From Polaromonas sp. (GTDB lineage Bacteria; Pseudomonadota; Gammaproteobacteria; Burkholderiales; Burkholderiaceae_C), in contig NZ_JAUXUP010000078.1 of NCBI RefSeq assembly GCF_030680935.1, positions 1-64,000 of the forward strand: DNA of 64,000 nucleotides, given 5' to 3'. Position 1 is the first letter of the stretch; each line of letters begins with the position of its first letter. Below are positions 10,772 to 35,326 of this stretch, one piece after another. The notes below the pieces were generated by a model. It was given only the letters and a program-made list of their open reading frames with translations. It was not told where the DNA came from and ran no database searches. Made by a program: the position numbers and the translations under genes.

Positions 10772-11295
10772 AGGCGCCAGCCCGCGTGGATGCCGTCCTT
10801 ACGCGCCGTCTGGGCCTGCTGGCCAGCCTCTGGTTTGCTACCGTTTTTATAGCTGGGTGTGCACAAACACCAAGGGCTGCAGCCCCAAATGATGCTGAAG
10901 TTTCATCGTGGACCGGGCGCATCAGCCTGCAGGTACAGAGCGAACCGCCCCAGGCCTTTTTTGCCGGTTTTGAACTCAAGGGATCAGCCGCGCAGGGCGA
11001 GCTGGTACTCAACAGTCCGCTGGGCAACAGCCTGGCGTTGCTGCGCTGGTCTGCCGAAGAAGCGGTGCTTGATTCGGGCAACCAGATCCAGCGATTTGCC
11101 TCGGTGGGTGAGCTGATCGAAAAAGCCACTGGTGCGGCCCTGCCCGTGCCCGCGCTGTTTGATTGGCTGCGCGGCAAAAACACCGCCGCAGATGGCTGGA
11201 CCGCCGACCTTACCCAACAGGCCGAAGGCCGCATCTCGGCCAGCCGCAGCATACCGCTGCCGCGCGCCGACCTGCGGGTGGTGCTGGCACGGTGA
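10768..11295 (+). CDS. lolB: Outer-membrane lipoprotein receptor LolB
   Basis: LolB takes lipoproteins from LolA and inserts them into the outer membrane. The 175-residue protein starts at GTG, overlapping the previous stop by 4 bp. It has a lipoprotein signal ending in the lipobox VFIAGC, then the LolB core (SSWTGRISLQV, GELVLNSPLGNSLALLRW). Codons for residues 24-42, including the lipobox Cys, lie within a family 1 repeat copy. It is the middle gene of a TPR-lolB-ispE unit. Confidence 0.93.
   Translation: MKAPARVDAVLTRRLGLLASLWFATVFIAGCAQTPRAAAPNDAEVSSWTGRISLQVQSEPPQAFFAGFELKGSAAQGELVLNSPLGNSLALLRWSAEEAVLDSGNQIQRFASVGELIEKATGAALPVPALFDWLRGKNTAADGWTADLTQQAEGRISASRSIPLPRADLRVVLAR
10837..10893 (+). 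repeat. Dispersed ~55-bp repeat, family 1 (copy inside lolB)
   Basis: The copy runs from GCTACCGTTTTTATAGCTGG through CACCAAGGGCTGCAGCC to CAAATGAT, on the coding strand of lolB. It encodes ATVFIAGCAQTPRAAAPND, including the lipobox. The reading frame equals that of the copies in the M16 gene at 17519 and in SCO1. Confidence 0.65.
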
Positions 11296-12182
11296 TGCAG
11301 CAGCAGCCCATCCGCGCTGCCGCGCCGCTGAAGGCCCTCTACGACGTTGCGGCGCCGGCCAAACTCAATCTGTTCCTGCACATCACCGGCCGAAGGCCCG
11401 ATGGCTACCATTTGCTGCAGTCGGTTTTCATGCTCATCGACTGGTGCGACACCCTGCATTTCGAATTGCGCACCGACGGGCAGATCACACGCAGCGATCT
11501 GGGCACCGGCAGCGCAGAGGCGCTGCCGGCCGAAGACCTGGTCGTACGTGCGGCCCGGGCGCTGCAAAACGCTTCGGGCACGTCGCTGGGGGTTCACATC
11601 GGGCTGGAAAAGCGCATTCCTGCGCAGGCAGGCATGGGCGGGGGCTCATCGGACGCCGCGAGTTGCCTGCTGGCGCTTCAGCGCCTGTGGGGCGTGCGCC
11701 TGCCGCCAGCCAACTTGCAGGCCATTGCGCTGAAACTCGGCGCCGACGTGCCATTTTTTCTCTCAGGTGGCCATGCGTGGGTGGAAGGGATAGGCGAAAA
11801 GATCACGCCCCTGGCGCTGCCGGCCGCACGTTTCGTGGTGGTCAAGCCCCTTGCCGGCCTGCCGACCGACGCCATTTTCCGGGCGCCCGAGCTCAAACGC
11901 GACACAGAAACTGCTACAATCCAAGGCTTTGCTGCAAACTCAAATGGCCCTGTTTACGAATTCGGCCATAACGACTTGCAGCCAGTCGCGCAGGCCTTGT
12001 GTCCGCAGGTTGGTCAATCCCTTGATTGGCTTTCCATGCAGCATTTAAAGGGCCGCATGACTGGCTCTGGAAGTGCTGTATTTGCGCATTTGCCGCATGC
12101 GATGACGCTGGCAGTCGCCCCGGGCGACTGGCAAGTCCGCACATGCAGCAACCTGGAGGCACATCCCCTGGCTGGCTGGTAA
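11295..12182 (+). CDS. ispE: 4-diphosphocytidyl-2-C-methyl-D-erythritol kinase IspE
   Basis: IspE phosphorylates CDP-ME in the non-mevalonate isoprenoid pathway. The 295-residue protein is a GHMP kinase: PAKLNLFLHITGRRPDGYH at the N-terminus, the ATP-binding PAQAGMGGGSSDAA motif near residue 100, and the C-terminal GRMTGSGSAVFA loop. The ATG at 11295 overlaps the lolB stop by one base. The order lolB-ispE-tRNA-Gln-prs-rplY-pth is a known proteobacterial arrangement. Confidence 0.96.
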   Translation: MQQQPIRAAAPLKALYDVAAPAKLNLFLHITGRRPDGYHLLQSVFMLIDWCDTLHFELRTDGQITRSDLGTGSAEALPAEDLVVRAARALQNASGTSLGVHIGLEKRIPAQAGMGGGSSDAASCLLALQRLWGVRLPPANLQAIALKLGADVPFFLSGGHAWVEGIGEKITPLALPAARFVVVKPLAGLPTDAIFRAPELKRDTETATIQGFAANSNGPVYEFGHNDLQPVAQALCPQVGQSLDWLSMQHLKGRMTGSGSAVFAHLPHAMTLAVAPGDWQVRTCSNLEAHPLAGW

Positions 12183-12290
12183 ACCCGGCGCCATGACATG
12201 TGTTTCCGGAAACAACGGTTTATAGGTTGATTGCCCTGACCCGCCACCTGTCTGTCTGACAGGTTCGGGAAAGAAGCAGTGGACCTGTGT

Positions 12291-12367
12291 AGGGGTGTCG
12301 CCAAGTTGGTTAAGGCACCGGATTTTGATTCCGGCATTCGCAGGTTCGACTCCTTCCACCCCTGCCA
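12291..12367 (+). tRNA. tRNA-Gln (anticodon TTG)
   Basis: This is a 77-nt cloverleaf with acceptor stem AGGGGTG and CACCCCT, anticodon loop TTTTGAT with anticodon TTG, a GGTTCGACTCC T-arm, discriminator G and an encoded CCA. It lies between ispE and prs, the usual place for tRNA-Gln in this gene order. Confidence 0.95.
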
Positions 12368-12374
12368 AAATTTT

Positions 12375-12401
12375 CGGGTCCCTTGAGGGGCCCGTGTTTT
12401 T
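12375..12401 (+). terminator. Terminator of tRNA-Gln
   Basis: The stem CGGGTCCC / GGGGCCCG (one T-G pair) has a TTGA loop and is followed by TGTTTTT. It begins eight bases after the CCA end. Confidence 0.7.
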
Positions 12402-12423
12402 AGGCCCCCGATGTCGGGGGCCT
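12402..12423 (+). terminator. Second hairpin after tRNA-Gln
   Basis: A perfect 10-bp G+C-rich stem (AGGCCCCCGA with TCGGGGGCCT) is followed by GTGTTTG. It may back up the first terminator. The U-run is poor, so it could also be only a stable leader hairpin. Confidence 0.4.
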
Positions 12424-12591
12424 GTGTTTGCTGACTGCCAGTATCTGCGCTTGAATTTTCGGGTCTGCCTCCCGCAAAATCCACTCCAGGCCACATGCAC
12501 ACCCAGCAGCCAGAGGGCGTCCATGTTTAAAGTGCGTTATTGCCACCTTCCATTCAGCCTCGTTCATCTCTAGACACCAGCTGGGCCCCAC
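12424..12591 (+). other. Leader region of prs, no feature recognised
   Basis: This 168-bp stretch must contain the prs promoter, since a terminator lies upstream. No convincing sigma-70 hexamer pair or purine-repressor palindrome was identified by eye. Confidence 0.3.
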
Positions 12592-13566
12592 ATGCAACCG
12601 CACCACTCCGACTTCATGCTTTTTACAGGCAATGCCAATCCGAGCATGGCCTCTGAAATCGCGCAGCACCTGGGCATATCGCTCGGTGCGGCCCATGTAG
12701 GCCGCTTTTCAGACGGCGAAGTGACGGTCGAGATCCAGCAGAATGTGCGCGCGCGCGATGTGTTTGTGGTGCAGTCCACCTGCGCTCCAATCAATGAAAA
12801 CCTGATGGAATTGCTGATCATGGTCGATGCGCTCAAACGCGCCTCCGCCGAGCGCATTTCCGCCGTGATTCCCTACTTCGGCTACGCCCGCCAGGACCGT
12901 CGCCCGCGATCGGCACGTGTGCCCATCAGCGCCAAGGTAGTGGCCAACATGCTGCAGGCGGTGGGTGTCTCGCGTGTGCTGACCATGGACTTGCACGCCG
13001 ACCAGATACAGGGATTTTTTGACATCCCGGTGGACAACATCTATGCCTCACCGGTGCTGCTGGGCGATTTGCGCCTGAAAAACTACAACGACCTGATGGT
13101 GGTTTCACCCGACGTCGGCGGCGTGGTGCGCGCACGGGCACTGGCCAAGCAGCTCGGCTGCGACATGGCGATCATCGACAAGCGCCGGCCCAAGGCCAAT
13201 GTGTCGGAAGTGATGCACGTCATTGGTGACATCGACGGGCGCAACTGCGTGATCATGGACGACATGATTGACACGGCCGGCACGCTGGTCAAGGCAGCCG
13301 AGGTGCTGAAAGAGCGCGGCGCCAAAAAGGTTTATGCCTATTGCACGCACCCGATTTTTTCGGGCCCGGCCATTGAACGCATTGCGCAAGGTGAAGCCCT
13401 CGACGAGGTGGTCATCACCAACACCATTCCCCTGAGCCAGGCGGCCCAGGACTGCAAGAAAATTCGCCAGCTCTCCGTGGCCCCGCTGATTGCCGAAACA
13501 ATCCAGCGCATTGCCAACGGTGAGTCGGTCATGAGTTTGTTCTCGGACCAGGACAATTTGTTCTGA
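12592..13566 (+). CDS. prs: Ribose-phosphate pyrophosphokinase
   Basis: Prs makes PRPP from ribose 5-phosphate and ATP for nucleotide, histidine and tryptophan synthesis. The 324-residue protein has the family opening [19 protein letters not shown], the metal-binding [19 protein letters not shown], and the PRPP loop [12 protein letters not shown]. An alternative ATG at 12616 would give MLFTGNANP; the upstream ATG adds eight residues that resemble extensions of other betaproteobacterial Prs proteins. Confidence 0.96.
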
Positions 13567-13574
13567 TCCGGGGC

Positions 13575-13607
13575 AAAAAGCCGGCTGCATTTTTGTGCAG
13601 CTTTTTT
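13575..13607 (+). terminator. Terminator of prs
   Basis: GCTGCA and TGCAGC form a stem around a TTTTTG loop, followed by six T. A run of A (13575-13579) precedes the stem. It lies 9 bp past the prs stop. Confidence 0.75.
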
Positions 13608-13608
13608 A

Positions 13609-13750
13609 GGAAAGTTTCAGAAATTCCGTTATGGGGATGCAGGGCAAGGCGCCCGGAGCGCAGGACACCGGAATGCACTTCAGTGCATGAGGATTCCGAG
13701 CACCACGCAACGCCGCCATGCGCCCAAAGACGGGATTTATGGGACTTTCC
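13609..13750. repeat. 142-bp foldback element with imperfect terminal inverted repeats
   Basis: The ends GGAAAGTTTCAGAAATTCCG and (reverse complement of the right end) GGAAAGTCCCATAAATCCCG match at about 16 of 20 positions. Inside is a smaller palindrome, AATGCACTTCAGTGCATG. No coding capacity was seen. It lies between the prs terminator and rplY, ending 46 bp before the rplY ATG, so the rplY promoter must be in or beside it. It looks like a non-autonomous MITE or REP-type element. Confidence 0.55.
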
Positions 13751-13795
13751 ATGTCGGGGTGAGCTGGTCGCGGCCCACCTCTTTTGGAGAAGATT

Positions 13796-14494
13796 ATGAA
13801 ATTCGTCGCTTTTGAGCGCGCCAAGCAGGGTACGGGTGCGAGCCGCCGTCTCCGCATCACCGGCCGCACGCCCGGTATTGTTTATGGTGGTACCGGTGAG
13901 CCGTCGCTGATCGAACTCGATCACAACGCACTCTGGCACGCCATCAAGAAAGAAGCCTTCCACGCTTCCGTCCTCGAGATGGAAATGGGCAGCAAGACTG
14001 AAAAAGTCCTGCTGCGCGATCTGCAGATGCATCCGTTCAAGCAACTGATCCTGCACATCGACTTCCAGCGCGTTGACGCGAAAACCCGCCTGACCATGAA
14101 AGTGCCACTGCACTACAGCGGTGAAGAAGAGTCCCCAGCGGTCAAAGCCGAGAACTGTCTCGTCAACCATGTGCTGACCGAGCTGAGCATCTCCTGCCTG
14201 CCAAAAGACCTGCCTGAATTCATTGCCGTCGATCTGACCGGCCTGAAAAAAGGCAACTCGCTGCGCGCCAAGGACATCACACTGCCCAAAGGCGTGAAAC
14301 TTGTTGCCAAAGGCACCCAGGACAATCCGGTTCTGGTTTCCGTGTCGGCCGTCTCAGCCGAAGCAGAAGCCGATGCAGCAGCCGCTGCAGCAGCCGCTGC
14401 GCCAGTTGACCCGAAAGCTGCCAAAGCCGCTGCCGCCAAGGACGCCAAAGCCGGCGCCAAAGCCGATGCGGCCAAGCCTGCTGCCAAGAAGTAA
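13796..14494 (+). CDS. rplY: 50S ribosomal protein L25 (Ctc type)
   Basis: The protein binds 5S rRNA in the large subunit. At 232 residues it is the long, two-domain Ctc form. The L25 domain ([30 protein letters not shown]) is followed by the beta domain ([22 protein letters not shown]). The last 45 or so residues are an Ala/Lys/Asp-rich low-complexity tail. The ATG at 13796 follows a GGAG Shine-Dalgarno; an upstream in-frame TTG would add four residues and is unlikely. Confidence 0.95.
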
Positions 14495-14527
14495 TTTACC
14501 TCCTGCGGCAGTGGCCTGAAAAGCCAG

Positions 14528-14567
14528 CGGCCCTTGTTCTCTGCGGAGGACAAGGGCCGTTTTTCTT
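14528..14567 (+). terminator. Terminator of rplY
   Basis: A perfect 10-bp stem (CGGCCCTTGT with ACAAGGGCCG) with a 12-base loop is followed by TTTTTCTT. Confidence 0.9.
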
Positions 14568-14638
14568 GGGCGGCGGTCTGCCTTGCGATAATCCTCTGGG
14601 CAGCCACGTCGGCAGCATCTTTCAGCTTCATCCATCGC

Positions 14639-15265
14639 ATGATCAAACTTTTTGTGGGCCTGGGCAATCCGGGCACCGAATACGAGGCAACACGCCACAA
14701 CGCCGGCTTCTGGTGGACCGAGGCGCTGGCGCGTGAACTCAAACTGTCCCTGGCGCTGGACAAAAATTACCACGCCCGTGTAGCACGCACCACCATCGCC
14801 GGTCAAACCGTCTGGTTGCTGGAGCCCCTGACCTTCATGAACCTGTCCGGCAAATCCGTGGCGGCGCTGGCGCGCTTCTTCAAACTCGCGCCCGAAGAAA
14901 TCCTGGTGGCGCATGATGAGCTGGACATCGTGCCGGGCCAGGCCAAGCTCAAGTTCGGCGGCAGCCACGCCGGCCACAACGGCCTGCGCGACATCCACGC
15001 GCAGCTCGGCACCGGCGACTACTGGAGGCTGCGCATAGGTGTCGGCCATCCCGGGGTGAAGTCCGAAGTCATCAACTGGGTGCTGAAAAAGCCGTCGCAG
15101 GAGCACCGGGTGGCCATTGAGGACAGCATCACCCGCTCACTCAAGGCGGTACCGGCGCTGCTTGCCGGCGAGATGGAAAAAGCCACGATGCTGATCCACA
15201 CCAGTGCGCCGCAGCGGCCCAAGCCGCCGCGCAAGCCTGAGGCTGAAGACTCGGAAAACGATTAG
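14639..15265 (+). CDS. pth: Peptidyl-tRNA hydrolase
   Basis: Pth recycles tRNAs from drop-off peptidyl-tRNA. The 208-residue protein starts [20 protein letters not shown], which carries the catalytic His (HNAGF). [32 protein letters not shown] and HNGLRDI follow. The catalytic Asp lies in HDELD. The C-terminal tail is rich in Pro, Arg and acidic residues and slightly longer than usual. Confidence 0.96.
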
Positions 15266-15654
15266 AGGCATCACGCTGCTGCTGTGGACTGCCTTGGACA
15301 GTAGGACAGACTCCCCACTCCCACCCCTAACCCCTCCCTCGCCCCGCTGGGCGATGGAGGGGGACTTCATTTGGCCGCGTGTGCTGCTCTCGCGTGCAAA
15401 CATGACCGACTCTTGGGATTCCCGCAGAAGAAGCGCTGCGCGCTTCTTCTGCTCCGGATTTATGTCCCCGGCATTCGTTTTCTTCTCCCCCACCCGTCGG
15501 GCTGGGCCGAGGAGCGCAGGCAAAAGCGGATCAGGGCTCGCGATTGTCTGAGCCGGAGGCGAGTTCGAGCGAGACCCCGCTTTTGACGAGCACCACAGGT
15601 TGCCTGGAGCGAAGCGGAAGGACCCAGACCATCGGGTCGCCTTTTCTTTTGCTT

Positions 15655-15684
15655 ACTTTTCTTTTGGCGACGCAAAAGAAAAGT
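15655..15684. repeat. Perfect 12-bp stem hairpin in a repeat-like block
   Basis: ACTTTTCTTTTG, six-base loop GCGACG, CAAAAGAAAAGT. It is flanked by other inverted sequences (15522-15720) that I recall as common in Comamonadaceae intergenic DNA; that recollection cannot be verified here. Confidence 0.6.
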
Positions 15685-15790
15685 GAGTTGCCGCCGGGCA
15701 ACCCCCGGCTTGTAGGCACACCCAACAGTACGAGGTAACAAACATGGATCCCGGGGCCAGCCCGGGATGACGAGAAGCGGTGCGAAATTC

Positions 15791-15840
15791 GCTATAAATT
15801 CAATAGCTACTCACACCCGCCAGTCAAGGGCCAAACTCCG
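15791..15840 (+). repeat. Dispersed ~55-bp repeat, family 1 (copy near ferredoxin)
   Basis: GCTATAAATTCAATAGCTAC, then TCACACCCGCC and CAAGGGCCAAAC follow the family block order. It ends 6 bp past the stop codon of the minus-strand ferredoxin gene. Confidence 0.65.
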
Positions 15841-15846
15841 AAAAGG

Positions 15847-16128
15847 CTATAAGCCCCGAGCCTGGACGACACCAGCAGCAGACTCGGCCTGCAAACGCCG
15901 GTATTTCTGCCAAAGCGTCTCCTGGTCTTCGATGAAAGCCGGGTTCAGGGGAATACAGGCCACCGGACAGACCTGCACACACTGCGGCTCGTCAAAATGC
16001 CCCACACACTCCGTACAACGTTGCGGGTCGATCTCGTAGATCTCTTTGCCCAGATAAATCGCCTGATTGGGACACTCCGGCTCGCACACGTCGCAGTTGA
16101 TACATTCGTCGGTGATCAACAAGGCCAT
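15847..16128 (-). CDS. YfhL-type 2[4Fe-4S] ferredoxin
   Basis: This 93-residue electron carrier has two cysteine clusters. The first is CINCDVCEPECP (C-x2-C-x2-C-x3-C-P). The second begins CTEC and, after an insert (VGHFDEP), continues C-x3-CP. The insert in the second cluster is typical of the YfhL/Fdx group with low-potential clusters. It directly precedes no redox enzyme; it lies 2 bp downstream of coaD on the same strand, an arrangement seen in related genomes. Partner proteins are unknown. Confidence 0.92.
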   Translation of the reverse strand: MALLITDECINCDVCEPECPNQAIYLGKEIYEIDPQRCTECVGHFDEPQCVQVCPVACIPLNPAFIEDQETLWQKYRRLQAESAAGVVQARGL

Positions 16129-16130
16129 GC

Positions 16131-16634
16131 TCAGCCTGCCTGTTGCGGCGCGTGCGCCCCTTGCAGGGCTGCGGCCACTGCGGGGCTGACCATCTGCCCC
16201 ACGTCGCCGCCCAGCTTGCTGATCTCACGCACCAGGGTGCTGCTGATACATTGCAGCGGCGCATCAGGCAGCAAAAACACGGTTTCAACGCCAGGCTGCA
16301 GCTTGCGGTTCATGGCTGCCATCTGCGCTTCGTAGTCGAAATCGGTCAGGTTGCGAACGCCACGCACCACGGCCACCGCCTGCTGAGCCACGCAAAAATC
16401 CATGATCAGGCCGTCAAAAGGCAGGACGCTGACGTGGCCCATGGCCTGGGTTTCGTCTTTGACCTGCTGCAGCCGCTGCTCCAGGCTGAACAGCGTCTTC
16501 TTGTGGTGGGCAACGGCAACCCCGATGACGAGCCGGTCAAACAAGCCGCCAGCGCGGCGCGCGATGTCTGCATGACCGAGGGTGAAGGGGTCGAAGGTGC
16601 CGGAATAAACCGCAACGCGGGGGTTTGCTGCCAT
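16131..16634 (-). CDS. coaD: Phosphopantetheine adenylyltransferase
   Basis: CoaD makes dephospho-CoA from 4'-phosphopantetheine and ATP. The 167-residue protein starts MAANPRVAVYSGTFDPFTLGH, which contains the nucleotidyltransferase TxGH-type motif. RGVRNLTDFDYEAQM and the CISSTLVREI segment are also present. Sequence upstream of the ATG at 16634 is open but is a low-quality, Arg-rich extension over a foldback repeat, so it was excluded. Confidence 0.96.
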   Translation of the reverse strand: MAANPRVAVYSGTFDPFTLGHADIARRAGGLFDRLVIGVAVAHHKKTLFSLEQRLQQVKDETQAMGHVSVLPFDGLIMDFCVAQQAVAVVRGVRNLTDFDYEAQMAAMNRKLQPGVETVFLLPDAPLQCISSTLVREISKLGGDVGQMVSPAVAAALQGAHAPQQAG

Positions 16635-16690
16635 GCGGCAATTATGCCGCGCTACCTCAGGGGCCGCCCGCCCCTGCCGCCCGAAGGGCC

Positions 16691-16855
16691 AGGAGGCTGG
16701 GCGGCAGAAGGCGTCGAAGCGAAAAGCGGCCCCAGCGAGGACGGTTTTTGCCGGGTTTGTAGGCCCATAGCCGTAGCTATGAGGCAAAAAGACGGTGAAA
16801 AACGGACCGCTGCGGTCGCTTTGCAGCCGACGACCCTTCTGCCGCCCAGCCTCCT
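16691..16855. repeat. 165-bp foldback element between coaD and rsmD
   Basis: A perfect 21-bp inverted repeat begins AGGAGGCTGGGCGGCAGAAG at 16691-16711 and returns at 16835-16855. The interior holds further imperfect palindromic matter: the stretch around 16741-16760 partly mirrors that around 16783-16805. The right arm reaches the stop codon of rsmD. It has no coding capacity and looks like a MITE-like or structured intergenic element. Confidence 0.6.
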
Positions 16856-17522
16856 AGGCTGGTTGCCGCAAAGCCGGGGCGCGCACCAGCAAATGGTAAA
16901 ACACCGCGCCCGCCTTGCCGCTGCGGTGCACCTGCAGGCCGTAATCGGCCAGTGCCTCGTCGGCCCACGCCTGCGGTGCTTCCAGATACACATAACCGGG
17001 CTCGGCCACCGCCTGGGCGGCAGCACGAAGCGCAGGCTCGAACAGCGGCGAGTCAAACGGTGGGTCCAGAAACACCAGTTGCTGACTACCCGCAGACAAG
17101 CGGCGCAAAACCGCCAGGCCGTCGCAGCGCTCGACTTTCACCATGGTCGCATGCAATTTGTCCTGAAGCGCCTTGAGCTGAGCTGCCAGGGCGGCGTCCT
17201 GCTCGCACAGCAAGACCTCTGCGGCACCGCGCGAGGCGGCTTCAAAACCCAAAGCGCCGGTGCCGGCAAACACGTCGATGCAGCGCCAGCCGGTCAGGTC
17301 TTGCCCCAGCCAGTTGAAAACGGTTTCGCGCACGCGGTCTGGTGTGGGCCGCAAACCCGGCTTGTTGGCCACCGGCAGCTTGCTGCGTTTGTACTGCCCG
17401 CCGATGATGCGTACTTCGCCGGGCGGCACGGTTTTGCGTGCCACCACTTTGCCCGACCTGGCGCGCGTTGCGGCGGCAGTGGCGGGGGCTGGTTTGGCGC
17501 TGGAAGCGGGGGTGTATTTCAT
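16854..17522 (-). CDS. rsmD: 16S rRNA (guanine(966)-N(2))-methyltransferase RsmD
   Basis: RsmD methylates G966 of 16S rRNA. The 222-residue protein has an Ala/Lys-rich N-terminal extension, then IIGGQYKRSKLPV, GLRPTPDRVRETVFNWL, the SAM-binding IDVFAGTGALGFEAASRGA, and the catalytic motif DPPF. Its start overlaps the stop of the upstream M16 gene by 4 bp, so it is probably co-transcribed with the M16 pair. Confidence 0.94.
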   Translation of the reverse strand: MKYTPASSAKPAPATAAATRARSGKVVARKTVPPGEVRIIGGQYKRSKLPVANKPGLRPTPDRVRETVFNWLGQDLTGWRCIDVFAGTGALGFEAASRGAAEVLLCEQDAALAAQLKALQDKLHATMVKVERCDGLAVLRRLSAGSQQLVFLDPPFDSPLFEPALRAAAQAVAEPGYVYLEAPQAWADEALADYGLQVHRSGKAGAVFYHLLVRAPALRQPA

Positions 17523-18886
17523 GGTGTGGCGTTTGGAGCGGCCCCAAGAATAACAGTCACCATTTTTTCAGGCTGCAGCTTGCGTGCAAATGCGGCTCTG
17601 ACATCGGCCACGCTCACTTTGGCGATGCGTGCGGTCCAGCTGTCGAGGTAATCGAGCGGCAGGTCGTTCCAGGCGATGTTGGAGAGGTTACCGAGCAGCT
17701 TGCGGTTACTGTCGATCAACAAGGGAAACCCGCCAATCAGGTTGTCCCGTGCGGCTTGCAGCTCGGCTTCGCTGGGGCCGTCTGCCACAAACCTGGCCAG
17801 CACCTGGCGCGCCACCTCGGTGGCCTGCGCGGCCTGGTCAGGCCGGGTCTGCAGGCCCAGGGTGAAAGCACCGGCATGTCGGCCAGGCGAGAAATAGCTG
17901 GAGACGCTGTAGCTGAGGCCGCGTTTTTCGCGCACCTCTTCGGTCAGGCGCGAGACAAAGCCACCACCGCCCAGCACGTAGTTGCCAAGCGTGAGCGCAA
18001 AAAAATCCGGGTCATCGCGCTTGTAGCCGGGCTGGCCCAGCAGCACATGCGCCTGCGCCGAGTCAAACGGTATGCGTATCAACCGGGCGGCCTCCAGCGC
18101 CGCCACCTCGGGCACCGGCGGCAAGGGTGGTACGGCCGCGCAGTCGCTTGTGGGCAGCCGCGCCAGCAGACCCTTCACCAGGGCATCGGCCTGCGCACGC
18201 GTCAGCGCACCGACGATGCTGACGCGGGCGTTGCACGCCGATATGTAGCCCGCATGAAACGCGCGCATGTCGGCCACTCCAATACGGCCCAGCGTGGCCT
18301 CACTGACTTCATGCCCGTAGGGATGGTTGCGGTACACCGCCTCGGAAAATGCCCGGGCCGCCAGGTAAGCAGGCCGGGTGTAGGACTCCTTGAGCTGGGC
18401 CAGCAGGCGCTGGCGGTCACGCTGCCAGACCGCATCGGGAAACGCGGGCTCAGCGATCTGGCGCGCCGCCAGCTGGACGGCCCGCTCCAGCAAATCCGGC
18501 TCGGTGAGGCTGCGCAGCGAAAAACTGAAGCGGTCGCTGCCGGCAGAGACCCCAAATTGCGCGCCCAGATCAGCCCAGGCTTCGCCCAGCGCGTTTTCAT
18601 CCAGCGCCGGCGCGCCGTTGCGCGCGGCCACCCCTTTGGAGAGCAGGGCCGCGGTCACACCGGCCAGCCCCGCCTGGTCGGCTGCAACCCGACGGCTCCC
18701 GCCATCCATGTCGACCTGCACATCGACCATGGCAATCGCCGGGCTTTCGATCAGATACACCCTGGCGCCACCGGGCTGGGTCCAGTGCTGGATGGGAATC
18801 GCTGCCAGTGCAAATCCAGAATAAAAAAGGCCTGTAGCCCATACCAGTATTGCGCAAACAGCTCTGTTTTTGATAGCAATTTTCAC
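17519..18886 (-). CDS. M16-family peptidase, non-catalytic partner
   Basis: The start was set at a GTG (18886), giving a clean signal peptide (KIAIKNRAVCAILVWATGL...FALA); an upstream TTG at 18952 overlaps the previous stop but adds a poor N-terminus. The mature protein has the two-lobed M16 fold but lacks HxxEH, as is usual for the second subunit of such pairs. The glycine-rich loop (GNYVLGGGGFVSRLTEEVREKRGLSYS) is intact. It probably forms a periplasmic heterodimer with the adjacent catalytic subunit. Part of the signal peptide is encoded by a family 1 repeat (18820-18877). Confidence 0.85.
   Translation of the reverse strand: MKIAIKNRAVCAILVWATGLFYSGFALAAIPIQHWTQPGGARVYLIESPAIAMVDVQVDMDGGSRRVAADQAGLAGVTAALLSKGVAARNGAPALDENALGEAWADLGAQFGVSAGSDRFSFSLRSLTEPDLLERAVQLAARQIAEPAFPDAVWQRDRQRLLAQLKESYTRPAYLAARAFSEAVYRNHPYGHEVSEATLGRIGVADMRAFHAGYISACNARVSIVGALTRAQADALVKGLLARLPTSDCAAVPPLPPVPEVAALEAARLIRIPFDSAQAHVLLGQPGYKRDDPDFFALTLGNYVLGGGGFVSRLTEEVREKRGLSYSVSSYFSPGRHAGAFTLGLQTRPDQAAQATEVARQVLARFVADGPSEAELQAARDNLIGGFPLLIDSNRKLLGNLSNIAWNDLPLDYLDSWTARIAKVSVADVRAAFARKLQPEKMVTVILGAAPNATP
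18820..18877 (-). repeat. Dispersed ~55-bp repeat, family 1 (copy inside the M16 gene)
   Basis: On the minus strand it begins GCTATCAAAAACAGAGCTGT and contains TTTGCGCAA, then GGGCTACAGGCCTTTTTTAT. It lies sense in the signal-peptide region and encodes AIKNRAVCAILVWATGLFY. The same frame and similar residues (AIKxxAxCAxLVxxTG) occur in the SCO1 copy. Confidence 0.75.
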
Positions 18887-29161: not shown

Positions 29162-29188
29162 TATAACGCGTTCCAAACAGAAATTTCC

Positions 29189-29890
29189 ATGCTCCCCTGG
29201 CTCACCGAATTTCCCGCCCAGCGTTTCAACGACGTCCGCGACACCTCGCTGGCCAAGCTGGTGCGCGACGACATGCTGGCCCTGATCCTCAAAGGGGTGC
29301 TGATCCCCGGCCAGCGCATCAACGAACCCGACGTGGCCGCCCGACTGGGTGTGTCGCGGGTGCCGGTACGCGAAGCCCTGCGCGAACTTGAAAGCTCGGG
29401 TCTGGTGGTGGCCCGCAAACATGCGGGCGTGTTTGTGCGCCAGCTCGATGCGTCGGAAATCCGGGACCTGTACCAGATGCGCGGCCTGCTGGACGGTTTT
29501 GCCGGGCGACAGGCCGCGCTGCTTGTGGGGGAGCCCAAGGCGGTGCTGCTGGCCCTGCTGGACGATTCGGTCCATGCCATGAAAGAGGCCTCCGCCAGGC
29601 ATGAGGTGCAGCGCTACTACGGCGAAAATCTGCGTTTTCATTGGGCCATCATTGAAGCCGCAGGCAATCAGACTCTGACGGAAACCTACCGCAGCATCGT
29701 GCAGAAGCTGCACCTGTCGCGCCTGAAAAACCTCTCCCACGACGTCGGCATGCAGGCTTCGATTGCCGAGCATGCAGAGATAGTCCAGGTTCTGCGCCAG
29801 GGCGACCCGCAACGCTGTGAGGACCTGATGGCCCACCACGTCAGCGATGCCTTCACGCGCCTGGTCCATGCGACACCGCCTGTAGCCTGA
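29189..29890 (+). CDS. GntR-family regulator with FCD domain (FadR subfamily)
   Basis: The 233-residue protein has a winged helix near residues 25-85 (LIPGQRINEPDVAARLGVSR, VPVREALRELESSGLV) and an all-helical FCD effector domain with the usual metal-binding Asp/His spread (for example RFHWAIIEAAGN and SIAEHAEIVQ). It heads a same-strand set with a Bug receptor, an MmgE/PrpD protein and a dehydrogenase, so it probably controls them in response to the imported acid. Confidence 0.9.
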   Translation: MLPWLTEFPAQRFNDVRDTSLAKLVRDDMLALILKGVLIPGQRINEPDVAARLGVSRVPVREALRELESSGLVVARKHAGVFVRQLDASEIRDLYQMRGLLDGFAGRQAALLVGEPKAVLLALLDDSVHAMKEASARHEVQRYYGENLRFHWAIIEAAGNQTLTETYRSIVQKLHLSRLKNLSHDVGMQASIAEHAEIVQVLRQGDPQRCEDLMAHHVSDAFTRLVHATPPVA

Positions 29891-29925
29891 ATCCGGACTT
29901 TGAACGAACCACCCACGGAGACAAC

Positions 29926-30897
29926 ATGAAACGACGCACCCTTCTTCAGGCCGCCCCCGCGCTGCTGGGCCTGCCCGGCCTGGCGCGGGCACAAGCCGCT
30001 TACCCGTCCAAACCGATACGCTACATCGTGCCGGTGTCCGCCGGGGGCGGTAGCGACATGGTGGGCCGCACGGTCACCGAGCGCTGGGGCAACCTGCTCA
30101 AGCAGAGTTTCATCGTGGACAACCAAGGCGGCGGCGGCGGTGTGATCGCGTCGCAGGCCACGGCGCGCGCCGCGCCGGATGGCTACACGCTGTTGCAGGG
30201 TTATGTGGCCACGCACGGCACCAGCCCGGCCACGCGCAAGTTGCCTTATGACGCGATCAAGGACTTCACGCCTATCGGCATGATAGGCGGCACGCCCAAT
30301 GTGCTGGTGGTCAACGCCGCCCTGCCGGTCACGAACATCAAGGAGTTCATCGACTACCTGAAGAAGAACCCCGGCAAGGTCAGCTACGGCTCCGCTGGCG
30401 CCGGTTCGCTGACCCACCTGACCATGGAGCTGTTCAAGCAGCAGGTCAACTCCTTCATGGTGCACATTCCCTACCGAGGCATAGCGCCCGCGTTTACCGA
30501 CCTGATAGGTGGGCAGACCCAGGCCATGTTCCCGGGCCTGGCCGCCGCCGTGCCGCACATCCGCTCGGGCCGGGTGCGCCCACTGGCAGTGACCGGCCTG
30601 CAGCGCCATCCGCAATTCAAGGACGTGCCGACGCTGGACGAATCCGGCTTCAAGGGTTTTGACGCCCAGCAGTGGTACGGCGTGGTGGGGCCAGCCGGCA
30701 TGCCTGCGCCTATCGTCAAACAGCTCAACGATACGCTGGCCGCCGTGCTGCGGGCGCCCGACCTGCGCGAAAAACTGTCGGTGGAAGCGGTCGAGCCCAT
30801 CGTCATGACACCGGAGCAGTTTGGCGAATTCATGCGGGCCGACATTGCCCGCTGGACCAAACTGGCGCGCGACCGCGGGATCCAGCTCGACAGCTGA
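29926..30897 (+). CDS. Bug-family receptor (tripartite tricarboxylate transporter, periplasmic)
   Basis: The 323-residue protein has a Tat-like signal (MKRRTLLQAAPALLGLPGLA, then RAQA), PIRYIVPVSAGGGSDMVGRTV, VDNQGGGGGVIASQATARA and HIPYRGIAPAFTDLIGGQTQ. It should bind an organic anion, possibly the substrate of the MmgE/PrpD protein that follows. No TctA/TctB genes are nearby. The 35-bp gap to the regulator suggests one transcript. Confidence 0.88.
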   Translation: MKRRTLLQAAPALLGLPGLARAQAAYPSKPIRYIVPVSAGGGSDMVGRTVTERWGNLLKQSFIVDNQGGGGGVIASQATARAAPDGYTLLQGYVATHGTSPATRKLPYDAIKDFTPIGMIGGTPNVLVVNAALPVTNIKEFIDYLKKNPGKVSYGSAGAGSLTHLTMELFKQQVNSFMVHIPYRGIAPAFTDLIGGQTQAMFPGLAAAVPHIRSGRVRPLAVTGLQRHPQFKDVPTLDESGFKGFDAQQWYGVVGPAGMPAPIVKQLNDTLAAVLRAPDLREKLSVEAVEPIVMTPEQFGEFMRADIARWTKLARDRGIQLDS

Positions 30898-30904
30898 TCT
30901 TCAC

Positions 30905-30962
30905 AACAATACTGCTTCCTAGCCCTTTATCCACGTGCGTAAGCAGCTACATTTTTAATAGC
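30905..30962 (-). repeat. Dispersed ~55-bp repeat, family 1 (copy upstream of the PrpD gene)
   Basis: On the minus strand: GCTATTAAAAATGTAGCTGC, TTACGCACG, AAAGGGCTAGGAAGC. It fills most of the 101-bp gap between the Bug receptor and the MmgE/PrpD gene. Confidence 0.75.
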
Positions 30963-30998
30963 AATTTCCATTCCTGGCAGCTCCTGCCGAAAGACACC

Positions 30999-32378
30999 AT
31001 GGCCCGCAATACCCAGGTCGCCGCCGACCACAACGCTCCTCCCGTCACCCGGATCCTTGCCCAACACGTCGCCACCCACCCCGGCTTTCTGGACGGCGGC
31101 TGGAGCGCAGCGGTTGACCGCGAAGCCCACCGCACCTTCATGAACTGGTTGGGCTGCGCTGTCGGCGCCGCCCATCACGAAGCCGCAGACGCCGCACTGG
31201 CTGCGGTGCAGATGCTGCAGCCCGCCGCGCAGGCCAGCGTGCTGGGCCGTGCAGAAAAGGTCGATATGGCCAGCGCTGCGCTGATCAACGGCATCACCTC
31301 GCACACCTTCGACTTCGACGACACGCACCTCAAAACCATCATCCACCCGGCTGGCCCGGTCGCCTCTGCGGTGCTGGCGCTGGCCGAACACACCGGCGCC
31401 TCCGGCCGCGAGGTGATCGACGCCCTGGTGCTCGGCATCGACGTGTCCTGCCGCGTCGGCAATACGATGTACCCCGAGCACTATGACCGGGGCTGGCACA
31501 TCACCGGCTCGACCGGCACCCTGGGCGCAGCCGCCGCCTGCGCGCGCCTGCTCAAGCTCGATGTGCAGAAAACCGCGATGGCGCTGGGCATCGCCGCCTC
31601 GCAACCCATTGGCATGCGCGAGCAGTTCGGCACCATGACCAAACCTTTCCACCCGGGCGGCGCCGCGCGCGCCGGCCTGATGTCGGCCCTGCTGGCGCAG
31701 CACGGTTACACCGCCAGCCCGAAGGCGCTCGAAGCGCCGCGCGGCATGATGCAGACGGTCTCGACCAAAAACGACTGGAACGAGATCACCGGCGAGCTGG
31801 GCCAGCGATTTGAAATATCGTTCAACAGCTACAAACCCTTTGCCTGCGGCATCGTGATTCATCCGAGCATCGACGCCTGCGCGCAGTTGCGCGCCCAGGG
31901 CGTGACCCCCGATCAGATAACCCGCATTGAACTCAAGGTGCATTCGCTGGTGCTGGAGCTCACCGGCAAGAAGGAGCCGGTGGACGGCCTGCAGGCCAAG
32001 TTCAGCGTTTACCACGGCTGCGCAGCCGGCTTGACGTTTGGCCGCGCCGCCGAGGACGAGTTCTATGACGAGGTGGTGAACCGCCCCGACATGGTGGCGC
32101 TGCGCCGCAAGGTGGTGGCCACGGTAGACGATTCCATCGACGAAGCCAGTGCCGACGTGACGGCCGTGCTGACAGACGGCCGCCGGGTGCATGTGTTTGT
32201 CGAACACGCAATAGGTTCGCTGCAAAACCCGATGACCGACGCCATGCTGGAAGCCAAGTTCAGCGGCATGTCGGATGCGGTGATAGGCGCTGCCAAAACA
32301 GCCGACTTGATCCGGGCCTGTTGGGCCATAGGCACTGCGACAGATGTGCGCGCGCTGACCGCGCTGGCGCGCCCATGA
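30999..32378 (+). CDS. MmgE/PrpD family protein
   Basis: The 459-residue protein has the family segments FDFDDTHLKTIIHPAGPV, TGSTGTLGAAAACARLL, FHPGGAARAGLMSALLA and FKPYACG-like FNSYKPFACGIVIHPSIDA. Family members include 2-methylcitrate dehydratase, cis-aconitate decarboxylase and iminodisuccinate epimerase, so the chemistry cannot be fixed from sequence alone. The start at 30999 follows a family 1 repeat. It overlaps the next dehydrogenase gene by 4 bp. Confidence 0.88.
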   Translation: MARNTQVAADHNAPPVTRILAQHVATHPGFLDGGWSAAVDREAHRTFMNWLGCAVGAAHHEAADAALAAVQMLQPAAQASVLGRAEKVDMASAALINGITSHTFDFDDTHLKTIIHPAGPVASAVLALAEHTGASGREVIDALVLGIDVSCRVGNTMYPEHYDRGWHITGSTGTLGAAAACARLLKLDVQKTAMALGIAASQPIGMREQFGTMTKPFHPGGAARAGLMSALLAQHGYTASPKALEAPRGMMQTVSTKNDWNEITGELGQRFEISFNSYKPFACGIVIHPSIDACAQLRAQGVTPDQITRIELKVHSLVLELTGKKEPVDGLQAKFSVYHGCAAGLTFGRAAEDEFYDEVVNRPDMVALRRKVVATVDDSIDEASADVTAVLTDGRRVHVFVEHAIGSLQNPMTDAMLEAKFSGMSDAVIGAAKTADLIRACWAIGTATDVRALTALARP

Positions 32379-33358
32379 GCAGGCCGCATATCGTCGTCCT
32401 CGACGACACCGAACGCGCGATGCGCCGCCTGGGCGACTGGACACGCATCGATACCCAGGCCGAGGTCACCATCCACCACGCGCCGCTCACAGGTGTGGCG
32501 CTGGTCGATGCGCTCAAGAATGCCGACGCGATTGTGCTGATGCGCGACCGCACGCCCTTCACCGCCGAGCTGCTGGCGCAGTTGCCGAAACTCCGCTACC
32601 TGGTGTTCACCGGCACCCGCAATGCGAAGCTGGACCTGGCAGCCCTCGCCGGGCGCGGCATCCCGGTCAGCCACACCGAATTCGGGCCGTCCAAGGACAG
32701 CACCTGCGAGCTGACCTGGACACTGATCCTGGCCGCGACCAAGCAACTGGCCAGCCACACCGCGCGCCTGAAGGCCGGGGCCTGGCGTGGCGAGTTGTCC
32801 GAAGCCCTGCCCTGCACGCTGGCGGGCCAGCGCCTGGGCCTGATCGGGCTTGGCGAAATCGGCGGGCGCGTGGCGAAAGTCGGAAAGGCGCTGGGGATGG
32901 AAGTGGTGACCTGGAGCCCGCGCATGACGGCCGAACGCGCCGCAGAGCAGGGCGTGGCCTTTGTGCCGCTGGACGAACTGCTGGCCACCTCACCTGTCGT
33001 CAGCCTGCATCTGGTGGTGCTGGAGACCACGCGGCATCTGCTCAACGCAGCGCGGCTGGCCCTGATGCAGCCGGGCAGCCTGCTGGTGAATACCTCGCGG
33101 TCGGAGCTGATCGACACCGCGGGGCTGGTGCAGGCCCTGCGCCAGGGGCGGCCCGGATTCGCCGCACTGGACGTTTTCGACGTGGAGCCCCTGCCGGCAG
33201 ATGACCCGCTGCGCGGACTGCCCAATGTGCTTTTGACCCCGCACCTGGGTTTTGTCACTGAGCCGGTGTTCCAGCGCTTCGCCAGCGGGGTGACCGAATG
33301 TCTGCAGGCCTGGCTGGCAGGCGCGGCCCCGATACGTCCGGTGCCCGTCAAGACCTGA
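32375..33358 (+). CDS. D-2-hydroxyacid dehydrogenase
   Basis: The 327-residue NAD(P)-dependent enzyme has GLIGLGEIGGRVAKVGKALG, the Arg in NTSRSELIDTAGL, Glu in DVFDVEPLPADDPL and His in LLTPHLGFVTE. The substrate is unknown. Coupling to the PrpD-family gene by a 4-bp overlap, and a Bug receptor upstream, suggest oxidation or reduction of an imported hydroxy acid. It is not closely similar to the SlcC-like enzyme at 25110. Confidence 0.87.
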   Translation: MSRPHIVVLDDTERAMRRLGDWTRIDTQAEVTIHHAPLTGVALVDALKNADAIVLMRDRTPFTAELLAQLPKLRYLVFTGTRNAKLDLAALAGRGIPVSHTEFGPSKDSTCELTWTLILAATKQLASHTARLKAGAWRGELSEALPCTLAGQRLGLIGLGEIGGRVAKVGKALGMEVVTWSPRMTAERAAEQGVAFVPLDELLATSPVVSLHLVVLETTRHLLNAARLALMQPGSLLVNTSRSELIDTAGLVQALRQGRPGFAALDVFDVEPLPADDPLRGLPNVLLTPHLGFVTEPVFQRFASGVTECLQAWLAGAAPIRPVPVKT

Positions 33359-33366
33359 ATTCACTC

Positions 33367-33419
33367 CTAATTTGATAGCTGCTTGCGCTTTACCCATAAG
33401 GGCTGAGGCCATATTTCAG
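33367..33419 (+). repeat. Dispersed ~55-bp repeat, family 1 (copy between the dehydrogenase and rpoH)
   Basis: TAATTTGATAGCTGCTTGCG, CTTTACCCATAAGGGCTGAG and GCCATATTTCAG. This is one of the best-conserved copies. It starts 9 bp past the dehydrogenase stop. Confidence 0.8.
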
Positions 33420-33597
33420 CATCAATGGGCGGCAGGGGCGGCCAGCCCCCGGCTTGAAAACTGCAGGACGGGCCAATGGATTCCCCCGGCTTAGTCTTGT
33501 GACCTACAGCGCGGGCGGAACCAACGCGCAAAATCAGACCCTAACCCCGGGTAAGTACTTATTAGCCATACCCTATCCGGGAGATTGAACCTATTGC

Positions 33598-33624
33598 TTA
33601 GCACTCTCTCTAACAGAGTGCTAA
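33598..33624. promoter_or_regulatory. CIRCE operator (HrcA-binding site) upstream of rpoH
   Basis: TTAGCACTC, nine bases, GAGTGCTAA: an exact match to the CIRCE consensus with perfect 9-bp arms. It ends 28 bp before the rpoH start codon, a repressing position. HrcA encoded at 324-1343 is the expected ligand. Confidence 0.95.
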
Positions 33625-33652
33625 TATTGACTTCGAAAAGGAGTTTTGCTCT

Positions 33653-34597
33653 ATGACTTACGCCCTGTCCCCTCAAGCGGCCCCCGCAACCACCCAGTTG
33701 GCGGCCGCCAATCCGTGGTCCTTGCTGCCACCTCTGGGTAACCTGGACGCCTATATTTCTGCGGTCAACCGCCTGCCCATGCTGACTCTGGAGCAGGAGC
33801 AGGAGTTCGCCCGCAGCCTGAAAGACAACAACGACCTGGACGCGGCCGGAAAGCTGGTGCTGTCCCATCTGCGCCTGGTGGTAGCCACATCGCGCAAATA
33901 CCTGGGTTATGGCCTGCCCCACGCCGACCTGATCCAGGAAGGCAATATCGGCCTGATGAAAGCCGTCAAACGCTTCGATCCCGACCAGGGCGTACGCCTG
34001 GTCAGCTACGCGCTGCACTGGATCAAGGCCGAGATGCACGAGTACATCCTGAAAAACTGGCGCATGGTCAAGGTGGCCACCACCAAGGCCCAGCGCAAGC
34101 TGTTTTTCAACCTGCGTTCCATGAAACAGGGTTTCAAGGACGACGCCGATGTGGCAACACACCGTGACACGCTGACGCAGGACCAGATTGACTCGATGGC
34201 CAAAACGCTGAACGTCAAGCGCGAGGAAGTGATCGAGATGGAGCAGCGCATGTCGGGCCACGATGTGTTGCTGGACCCGAGCCCCAGCGACGACGGTGAA
34301 GAGGCGTTTGGTCCGATTGCCTATTTGTCCGATGCCACGCAGGAGCCCACCATGCTGATGGAGTCGCGCCAGCGCGACTACCTGGCCAGCGATGGCATCA
34401 CCACCGCGCTGGAAGGCCTGGACGATCGCTCACGCCGCATCGTTGAGGAGCGCTGGCTCAAGGTCAACGACGACGGTTCGGGCGGCATGACGCTGCACGA
34501 TCTGGCGGCCGAGTACAAGGTCAGCGCCGAGCGCATTCGCCAGATTGAAGTGGCAGCGATGAAGAAAATGAAAAAGGTCCTGGCGGCTTATGCCTGA
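33653..34597 (+). CDS. rpoH: RNA polymerase sigma-32 factor RpoH
   Basis: The 314-residue protein has region 2 (HLRLVVATSRKYLGYGLPHA, DLIQEGNIGLMKAVKRFDPD), the diagnostic RpoH box (QRKLFFNLRSMKQGF) and region 4 ending in SAERIRQIEVAAMKKMKKVL. It directs heat-shock transcription. AAGGAG lies 9 bp before the ATG. The CIRCE element upstream implies HrcA repression of rpoH itself. The usual RpoH thermosensor mRNA structure was not evaluated. Confidence 0.97.
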   Translation: MTYALSPQAAPATTQLAAANPWSLLPPLGNLDAYISAVNRLPMLTLEQEQEFARSLKDNNDLDAAGKLVLSHLRLVVATSRKYLGYGLPHADLIQEGNIGLMKAVKRFDPDQGVRLVSYALHWIKAEMHEYILKNWRMVKVATTKAQRKLFFNLRSMKQGFKDDADVATHRDTLTQDQIDSMAKTLNVKREEVIEMEQRMSGHDVLLDPSPSDDGEEAFGPIAYLSDATQEPTMLMESRQRDYLASDGITTALEGLDDRSRRIVEERWLKVNDDGSGGMTLHDLAAEYKVSAERIRQIEVAAMKKMKKVLAAYA

Positions 34598-34642
34598 TCA
34601 AGCCTGATCCCTTGACCGTGGTGCGGCGAAAGCGGCACCGCC

Positions 34643-34680
34643 AAAGCCTGCATACGACCATCGTATGCAGGCTTTTTTTT
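34643..34680. terminator. Terminator of rpoH (possibly bidirectional)
   Basis: A near-perfect 15-bp stem (arms 34643-34657 and 34661-34675, core AGCCTGCATACGA) with loop CCA is followed by a run of eight T. It lies between the convergent rpoH and SCO1 genes. Confidence 0.92.
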
Positions 34681-34696
34681 GACAATCGCCAGCGCC

Positions 34697-35326
34697 TCAC
34701 CCGCTCTTGAGCAAGAGCCGGATGTCCGCTGCAAGTGCTGGTGCACCGCTGCCATACCGGCTGTACAGGCGCACCTTGCCAGTCGGGTCAAACACATAAC
34801 TCCCGGCCGTGTGATCGATCGAGTAGCTGCCCGGGGTTTTGCCGTCGACCTTTTTGTAGAAAATCTTGAAGTTTTTGGCCAGCTGCGGCAGCTTGTCCAG
34901 TTCGGGGCGCAGCGCCAGAAAACCCGGATCGAAATTGGCCATGTAGGCCTTGAGCACATCCTGGGTATCGCGCTCCGGGTCAAGCGTGACAAACAGGCCT
35001 TGCAGACGTGCGCCGTCAGCGCCCAGCATTTTCCTGATTTCGGCCAGTTCGGCCATCGAAGTGGGGCAAACATCCGGGCACTGGGTGAAGCCAAAAAACA
35101 CCACCACCACCTTGCCCTGAAAATCCTTCAGGCTGCGCGCCTGCCCATTGTGGTCGGTCAGGGCAAAGTCGCGTGCATAGTCGGCGCCGGTGATGTCGAT
35201 GCTGGCAAACTGCGGTTTGGACTCGGAGCAAGCGGTCAAAAAGCCTGTAGACCCGACCAGCAAAGCGCAAGCAGCTACTGATTTAATAGCGCTTCGCCTG
35301 GCCAGAAAGAAGGGTGTCGCGCTCAT
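34697..35326 (-). CDS. SCO1/SenC copper chaperone
   Basis: SCO proteins deliver copper to the CuA site of cytochrome oxidase subunit II. The 209-residue protein starts at 35326 ([16 protein letters not shown]...), with a lipoprotein-like signal (GFLTAC), the metal site CPDVC in [17 protein letters not shown], and the conserved later His in [14 protein letters not shown]. Much of the signal peptide is encoded by a family 1 repeat copy. It overlaps the ctaB stop by 4 bp, placing it at the end of the SURF1-ctaA-ctaB set. Confidence 0.93.
35236..35290 (-). repeat. Dispersed ~55-bp repeat, family 1 (copy inside SCO1)
   Basis: On the minus strand: GCTATTAAATCAGTAGCTGC, TTGCGCTTTGC, then GGGTCTACAGGCTTTTTGA. 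It lies sense in the signal peptide and encodes [18 protein letters not shown], in the same frame as the M16 and lolB copies. Confidence 0.8.

Follow-up and report, generated by a model that had tools for sequence, protein, structure and literature searches.

A short dispersed repeat forms part of the predicted signal peptides of three conserved envelope proteins in Polaromonas and related genera

The DNA examined here (the window) comprises the first 64,000 nucleotides of contig NZ_JAUXUP010000078.1 of a Polaromonas sp. genome (assembly GCF_030680935.1) and has a GC content of 62.5%. Scattered along it are copies of a short repeat, three of which lie in sense orientation at the 5' ends of lolB, a gene of the M16 family, and SCO1/SenC (Table 1). 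A first-pass annotation of the sequence had proposed that these copies encode signal-peptide segments in a common reading frame. We found all three where it had placed them, to within a few bases, using a profile from which they had been left out; the residues it quoted are correct, and the frame is identical in the three genes. The LolB N terminus reads (GTG)KAPARVDAVLTRRLGLLASLW[FATVFIAGCAQTPRAAAP]NDAEV, a GTG at 10786 being the start favored by our home-made gene caller, and that of the M16 protein reads (GTG)K[IAIKNRAVCAILVWATGLF]YSGFALAAIPIQHW; in SCO1 the repeat-encoded part directly precedes TACSESK. In M16 and SCO1 the repeat DNA gives the predicted hydrophobic core of the signal, and in LolB the predicted lipobox. 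Removing the repeat residues lowered a crude signal score from 2.28 to 1.12 for M16 and abolished it for SCO1 (from 1.85) and LolB (from 2.24), which bears out, as a prediction, the claim that the repeat serves as part of a signal. In many genera the R-R/K-R preceding the repeat in SCO1, together with the repeat's own A-[LI]-K, resembles a twin-arginine motif. The SCO1 protein itself is up to 82% identical to named Polaromonas records.

Table 1. Genes with repeat-encoded N termini and all repeat copies discussed in the window.
Feature	Position	Strand	Evidence or remark
lolB	10768..11295	+	Pfam PF03550, 52.3 bits
Repeat copy, sense, gives LolB lipobox I-A-G-C	10836..10885	+	31.5 bits, E 1.3e-7 (leave-three-out nhmmer)
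M16-family gene, start inferred	17519..18886	-	Pfam PF05193, 127.4 bits; upstream starts in orthologues
Repeat copy, sense to M16, gives predicted signal core	18824..18878	-	Leave-three-out 40.4 bits, E 2.2e-10
SCO1/SenC gene, start inferred	34697..35326	-	Pfam PF02630, 143.6 bits; upstream starts in orthologues
Repeat copy, sense to SCO1, gives predicted h-region directly before lipobox L-T-A-C	35240..35290	-	Leave-three-out 25.9 bits, E 7.3e-6
Repeat copy	4866..4919	+	44.2 bits; 3' of gene, overlaps called gene end by 8 nt
Repeat copy, intergenic, 3' of a gene	15791..15834	+	26.7 bits; same place filled in G099, 22.0 bits
Repeat copy, intergenic	30919..30963	-	36.2 bits
Repeat copy, intergenic	33364..33416	+	43.0 bits
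Repeat copy inside gene 38286-39011(-), antisense, in-frame read-through	38814..38867	+	38.3 bits
Weak repeat copy, intergenic	52030..52077	-	18.6 bits
Repeat copy upstream of gene 55249-56004(-)	56104..56158	-	39.0 bits; same place filled in G099, 43.3 bits

The DNA profile was built from window copies and iterated over 863 kb of the same genome (G000; 3.85 Mb in 82 contigs), namely the window and 40 stretches of ~20 kb each. For the three signal-coding copies we used a leave-three-out profile made from the other 111 aligned copies; the rounds that gathered these had started from six window copies, the three included. Among its 176 listed matches in the 863 kb, the copies of M16, lolB and SCO1 rank 56, 97 and 111, respectively; the best match in the reversed sequence had an E value of 0.3. 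Signal codons could in principle resemble the repeat by chance or convergence, as the translation of the repeat is itself signal-like, and synonymously recoded N termini did reach 18.4 bits, a range that includes the weakest orthologue matches described below (11 to 18 bits). For the three window copies this explanation was refuted by the same control. The best recoded scores were 15.2 bits for lolB (real score, 31.5), 18.4 for SCO1 (25.9) and 18.3 for M16 (40.4); none of 500 recodings per gene reached the real score, whichever of two codon-usage models was applied, and 842 N termini of the sample, each recoded five times, gave at most 7.4 bits. Because recoding destroys the match, we take the three matches as DNA-level homology rather than a by-product of signal-like protein, and we find coincidence hardly credible.

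The consensus of the repeat in G000 is 55 nucleotides long, TGCTATTAAATTAATAGCTGCTTGCGCACGTCCGGTAAGGGCTGGAGGCCGATTT, with G or C at 27 of the 55 positions (49% GC); its predicted fold has an AT-rich hairpin first and then GC-rich pairing or two smaller hairpins. The 863 kb hold 127 nonoverlapping copies at E < 0.01, of which 74 are intergenic, 9 lie across the 3' end of a gene, 2 lie across a 5' end, and 42 (about a third) fall inside called genes; all placements rest on our home-made gene caller. The in-gene copies occur in either orientation (for example, in C20:11860-15798, C77:86448-89666 and C56:104234-105880), and antisense N-terminal copies are also present (for example, at C20:127615 and C16:33041). 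Across eight genomes we collected 412 copies, the reversed-sequence control yielding 0. Consensus folds were predicted elsewhere as two hairpins in G064 and G010 and as one long hairpin in G015. The repeat is thus an element of ~50 to 55 nucleotides with predicted hairpins, and most of the Comamonadaceae genomes sampled contain it in large numbers. As in small in-gene repeats resembling miniature inverted-repeat transposable elements (MITE) or Rickettsia palindromic elements (RPE), its copies are short, dispersed, numerous and predicted to form stem-loops, and those inside called genes are read through in frame. A search of the window against Rfam returned three tRNAs and no family match to the repeat above the gathering score.

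We found no mover of the repeat. A protein resembling REP-associated tyrosine transposases (RAYT), with a Y1_Tnp domain, is encoded in G000 at C20:83476-84171 (match C20:83839-84129, 43.7 bits; the single match in the genome), and 11 of 12 family genomes searched have a Y1_Tnp match, the repeat-poor G042 among them. This candidate is unsupported as the mover, since its gene has no adjoining repeat in G000, where the sole listed copy in C20:79-89 kb lies at 87987, 3.8 kb away, or in G047, where 2.2 kb of flanking sequence held no copy. In G064 one copy lies roughly 0.6 kb upstream of the RAYT gene and none downstream, in 2.3 kb read.

It is also conceivable that the family arose from a signal-peptide sequence and then spread, and its old presence at lolB, SCO1 and M16 agrees with such an origin. 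Most copies are intergenic, however (69 to 74 of 127 in G000 and 83 of 131 in G015), and the consensus forms predicted hairpins; signal coding explains neither, and we regard this direction of descent as very unlikely.

The frame shared by the three copies reads AIKLIAACA in the consensus, whose sole stop-free sense frame is AIKLIAACARPVRAGGRF. Because the other two sense frames hold stops, a common frame is nearly forced, and the same-frame observation of the first-pass annotation, true as it is, constitutes weak evidence. Among 62 sense copies inside called genes of the eight genomes, 41 are in the common frame, 16 are in another and 5 could not be assigned; within the first 30 residues the share is 19 of 21.

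We looked at the same genes in 100 genomes of the family, which represent 99 genera and include the window's own. Protein searches found matches to LolB, SCO1 and M16 in 94, 96 and 91 genomes, respectively, distant paralogues included, and the best 30 loci per gene (90 in total, own included) were read. With the leave-three-out profile, 45 of the 90 carry an N-terminal sense copy at E < 0.05 (lolB, 13/30; SCO1, 15/30; M16, 17/30; own included). Counting weak matches, a sense copy stands at the same site in 11 of 28 lolB, 13 of 28 SCO1 and 16 of 28 M16 loci of other genera; of these, 6, 8 and 13 score at least 19 bits, and the weakest score 11 to 12. The best belongs to the M16 gene of G072 (37.6 bits; protein, 62% identical), and the frame is the same in those orthologue rows whose translations were inspected. 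When 80 named SCO1 loci were examined, the repeat matched the DNA of 31, with Polaromonas, Rhodoferax, Acidovorax and Simplicispira among the genera; rows of Hydrogenophaga (three), Limnohabitans (two) and Tepidimonas (one) gave no match. Because other genera hold a sense copy at the same site, the three copies are old residents, and the insertions are not, as might first be supposed, peculiar to this genome.

The first-pass annotation had further suggested that the repeat created or replaced signals. Orthologues without a DNA match also have signal-like N termini (judged by eye), and a few SCO1 rows (e.g., L119 and L129) have short, different signals. Replacement is therefore the more likely of the two and the creation of export the less so; to judge from these alignments, the copies are of old date and occupy sites at which different signals are present in other orthologues.

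The form of the repeat differs among genomes. In G064, another Polaromonas, the first 12 copies encountered include 10 with at most three changes from CCCGCGATATTCTATTGG and two that are more diverged (manual count); genome-wide, this 26-mer variant has 567 matches at up to 3 mismatches (control, 0). The N-terminal copy of the G064 M16 gene, MITIKNIAAPAIFYWAAAVF, has no change from the variant, and that of SCO1, MLKAIKNIAVPAIFYWAAALF, has one, so that the two proteins have near-identical predicted signals, IKNIA[AV]PAIFYWAA. We scored signal copies against profiles made from each genome's other copies. Ten profiles covered 23 signal copies, 22 further ones sitting in genomes without a profile, and the own genome was best for 12 of the 23, compared to 2.3 expected by chance (G000, 3/3; G015, 3/3; G064, 3/3; G047, 2/2; G010, 1/2). 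With 2 copies behind them, the profiles of G023 and G070 were dropped from an eight-profile test that drew on more DNA, in which the own profile was best, on raw scores, for 12 of 19 (G000, 3/3; G015, 3/3; G064, 3/3; G047, 2/2; G099, 1/2). When the genome labels were permuted 20,000 times, the centred mean observed was attained in 3 trials. As the signal copies had been gathered with a G000-derived profile, divergent variants are under-counted and G000 rows favored; without G000, the own profile was best in 9 of 20 (ten profiles) and 9 of 16 (eight profiles, raw). One copy that the G000 profile missed, in the M16 gene of G099 (of the same genus as G000), stands outside both tests and scores 30.8 bits with its own profile, compared to at most 14.5 with four others. 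A similar variant is common to G004, G010, G015 and G072, which blurs their ranks. The outcome is mixed: many rows reflect inheritance, and the local variant is followed clearly in G064 and in G047 and likely also in G015.

Could plain descent alone account for this, with one ancient insertion per gene passed on vertically and its likeness to the repeat preserved by constraint on N-terminal codons (AT-rich, rare codons, little mRNA structure)? A single register to the mature Cys is shared by 15 of 21 aligned SCO1 rows (manual count), and G000 and G099 share gene-specific letters in lolB and M16 (by eye). The fraction of identical residues encoded by the same codon stays at 0.69 to 0.74 in the repeat part across divergence and falls from 0.70 to 0.55 in the mature part, a comparison on which we do not lean because its rows were chosen for DNA match and are biased. 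Yet descent leaves unexplained why the G064 M16 and SCO1 genes carry the stretch with 567 matches and why signal copies prefer their own genome's profile in the permutation test, and a constraint on 5' codons is not expected at the 3' arm of the repeat (GGGCTACAGGCC). We therefore think it unlikely that descent suffices. Repeated, independent insertion into the same tolerant spot, each time from the variant active in that lineage, would fit the scatter of DNA matches on the SCO1 tree. It would also fit the SCO1 gene of G064, which has a different n-region and in which 27 residues separate the repeat from the lipobox Cys (manual count), compared to the 21 of the shared register; this spacing favors a separate insertion there. 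In the same genome the M16 register is nearly kept, which favors a replacement in place, and as a common register unites the majority of SCO1 rows and nearly unites those of M16, and random insertion is unlikely to agree to the codon, we regard independent insertion as rather doubtful.

Beyond lolB, M16 and SCO1, further sense N-terminal copies coincide with a hydrophobic segment. G064 contributes a DUF547 protein, a presumed PBP1C-like protein, a presumed cupredoxin-like protein and a LivM-like permease, in which the segment is the first helix. G047 has a DUF547 protein and a small protein that looks secreted, G099 what we take to be a HupE/UreJ-like protein, G015 a presumably cytochrome-c-like protein, and G000 a case at C39:26012; the names DUF547 and BPD_transp_2 come from Pfam (that of the G047 DUF547 protein also from a match). 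Another 60 kb of G064 with 13 copies, some of them shared with the exact-match loci described below, added one more case, MHHQPLLRPLT[AMKWIAAPAIFYWATA]ALAAQ. To ask whether such cases exceed expectation, we excluded the N-terminal copies of lolB, M16 and SCO1, around which several of the stretches had been chosen, and considered copies wholly inside called genes. Sense copies start within the first 30 residues about twice as often as expected (10 of 51, compared to 4.9; simulated P = 0.019), while antisense copies do so in 11 of 63 cases (7.1 expected, P = 0.07), 5 of them signal-like. Of the 10 sense copies, 7 are signal-like at a threshold of 1.45, which was set after a case at 1.48 had been seen, and 6 at the threshold of 1.6 used earlier, at which 21 to 27% of all called genes qualify. 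Including copies that lie within a gene when a start codon upstream of the called one is taken, a class that contains spurious extensions, the counts become 20 of 61 (5.9 expected) for sense and 24 of 76 (8.9 expected) for antisense. In 30 loci of G064 cut around exact matches, none of 40 copies formed a clear signal peptide, and 33 were intergenic. The N-terminal enrichment that the first-pass annotation had suggested looking for thus exists outside the three genes and is modest; together with the G064 loci, it indicates that signal copies are a retained minority.

Several observations weigh against the view that repeat copies took over signals and were later rewritten. Our gene caller set the M16 and SCO1 starts downstream of the repeat, and signals were scored by a crude rule. 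As the first-pass annotation had pointed out, the same residues in orthologues lacking the repeat would speak against its proposal, and SCO1 shows this in part: the 49 named rows whose DNA does not match divide into 25 whose residues still follow a loose repeat-like pattern and 24 whose residues do not. Such residues may be what is left of a decayed repeat, residues outlasting DNA likeness, or may in part belong to an older signal. On a SCO1 tree of 81 rows, the DNA-match label needs 17 changes, compared to a mean of 25.5 after shuffling; as far as this tree can tell, the label is clustered and many losses or gains would still be needed. Strong DNA matches in DUF547 genes occur in G064 and G047 alone; of six more loci, read out of sample in six further genomes, one scored 13.7 bits and five below 9 with any of four profiles, though the G040 protein nonetheless reads VNRRNAITLIAKYSILAGASGAFGQ. 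The own-genome preference also has its failures. With ten profiles, the own one was best for 0 of 2 copies in each of G004, G023, G070, G072 and G099, and the G010 M16 copy failed; with eight, raw, it was best for 0 of 2 in each of G004, G072 and G010, and the G099 lolB copy failed; after centring, 10 of 19 remained, with none of the three G000 copies first. Scored with the G000 profile, the G099 lolB copy has 26.7 bits, whereas the profile of its own genome gives 10.1, and we therefore attribute it to plain descent; the G099 SCO1 copy, best with its own profile among the eight, scored marginally better with that of G047 in a separate scoring. Finally, G000 and G099 have also kept the intergenic copies at 15791 and 56104 at the same sites, and persistence is thus no special property of signal copies. 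At 15791, beside a gene we take to be ferredoxin-like, each genome's copy is best with its own profile (26.3 versus 12.2 bits in G000 and 45.6 versus 24.3 bits in G099); at 56104 this holds for the G000 copy (37.9 versus 12.5 bits), and the G099 copy fits the G000 profile better than its own (43.7 versus 37.9 bits). Turnover of letters at a kept site is therefore neither limited to coding copies nor universal.

Taking both sides together, we consider it likely that repeat copies took over signals in these genes, were kept, and in some lineages were rewritten from the local variant of the repeat. A signal peptide needs little beyond charge, hydrophobicity and a cleavage site, and because it needs so little, an in-frame N-terminal copy can serve as an h-region or lipobox. 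The stop-free sense frame, with AIKLIAACA, would encode a short basic-then-hydrophobic peptide that is already a fair signal peptide, and a copy at an exported protein's N terminus, if tolerated or useful, would stay, as the h-region in M16 and SCO1 and as the lipobox in LolB. The takeover of existing signals would be old, in ancestors of these genera, and kept since it worked; the later rewriting in some lineages may have come about by exchange (conversion) with the local variant or by its renewed insertion. More ambitiously, the noncoding repeats might form a living reservoir whose exchange keeps rewriting the signals of unrelated conserved proteins, a concerted evolution within the genome; this may well hold, although we stop short of favoring it. 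The three genes offer a case, open to counting, of repeat DNA that was taken into conserved envelope proteins and has remained there while genera diverged. They also make concerted evolution between coding signal peptides and noncoding repeats testable, and they imply that likeness among the signal peptides of this family can have causes other than protein ancestry.

Of the remaining copies in the window, the one at 4866 follows a gene that we take to be RapZ-like, and the one at 38814 lies inside a presumably SURF1-like gene. There the repeat-encoded KVLPALGGRALAATENIA aligns without gaps with three of seven orthologues (G099, G047 and G042), and the other four have 2 to 13 residues more at the site, not fewer, which suggests an old insertion or a replacement in place rather than a fresh insertion. 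Elsewhere in the window, the gene pairs at 47242-48699 and 49282-50686 are similar neighbors that match the same places in G047, and 116 nucleotides at 48388 and 50384 are 73% identical.

The following comparisons draw on excerpts of the papers cited. BRE is a dispersed repeat of Bordetella and Comamonadaceae, including Polaromonas, with some copies in coding sequences (Hot et al. 2011, PMC3110155). It is ~90 bp long, 69% GC in its Bordetella copies, and present in at most 29 copies per genome (PMC3110155), whereas our repeat, at 55 nucleotides, 49% GC and 127 copies in 863 kb, is set apart from it by description, not by sequence. The repetitive extragenic palindromic (REP)/RAYT systems, with GTAG- and CGTC-tagged palindromes (PMC3733652), resemble ours in having a short palindromic repeat, many copies and, in the same genome, a RAYT-like gene; they differ in that no repeat stands beside that gene in G000 or G047. 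GTAG and CGTC tags are at neither end of the 55-nucleotide consensus, whose ends may differ from those of the true element. The RPE lie in frame inside Rickettsia genes and also between genes (Ogata et al. 2000, via PMC2229807). Like them, our repeat has copies inside conserved protein genes, in G000 in either orientation, that are read through in frame, as well as intergenic ones; the RPE, however, are 105 to 146 bp long, compared to ~50 to 55 nucleotides here, and are described as tolerated insertions, not signal peptides (PMC2229807).

The idea that a repeat can supply a signal peptide, which the first-pass annotation called an unusual route, is already known. In Yersinia, the predicted signal peptide of YPO1552 consists in part of the enterobacterial RU-2/YPAL repeat, related proteins of other genera have unrelated signals, and a signal is likewise predicted for YE2643, a second small putative protein containing a repeat frame (Delihas 2007, PMC2759123; review, PMC2229807). 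Both are small putative proteins of unknown function, YPO1552 being kept in Y. pestis and Y. pseudotuberculosis (PMC2759123). In the part of the literature searched, we found no repeat-encoded signals in several conserved proteins across genera or matching genome-specific variants, and no match to six repeat core strings of 14 to 15 nucleotides. Compared to YPO1552, the proteins described here are conserved envelope proteins found across genera, and their signal copies in some genomes follow that genome's own variant. As far as the searched literature shows, what is new relative to the Yersinia precedent is the involvement of several conserved proteins across genera, together with their agreement with genome-specific variants of the repeat.

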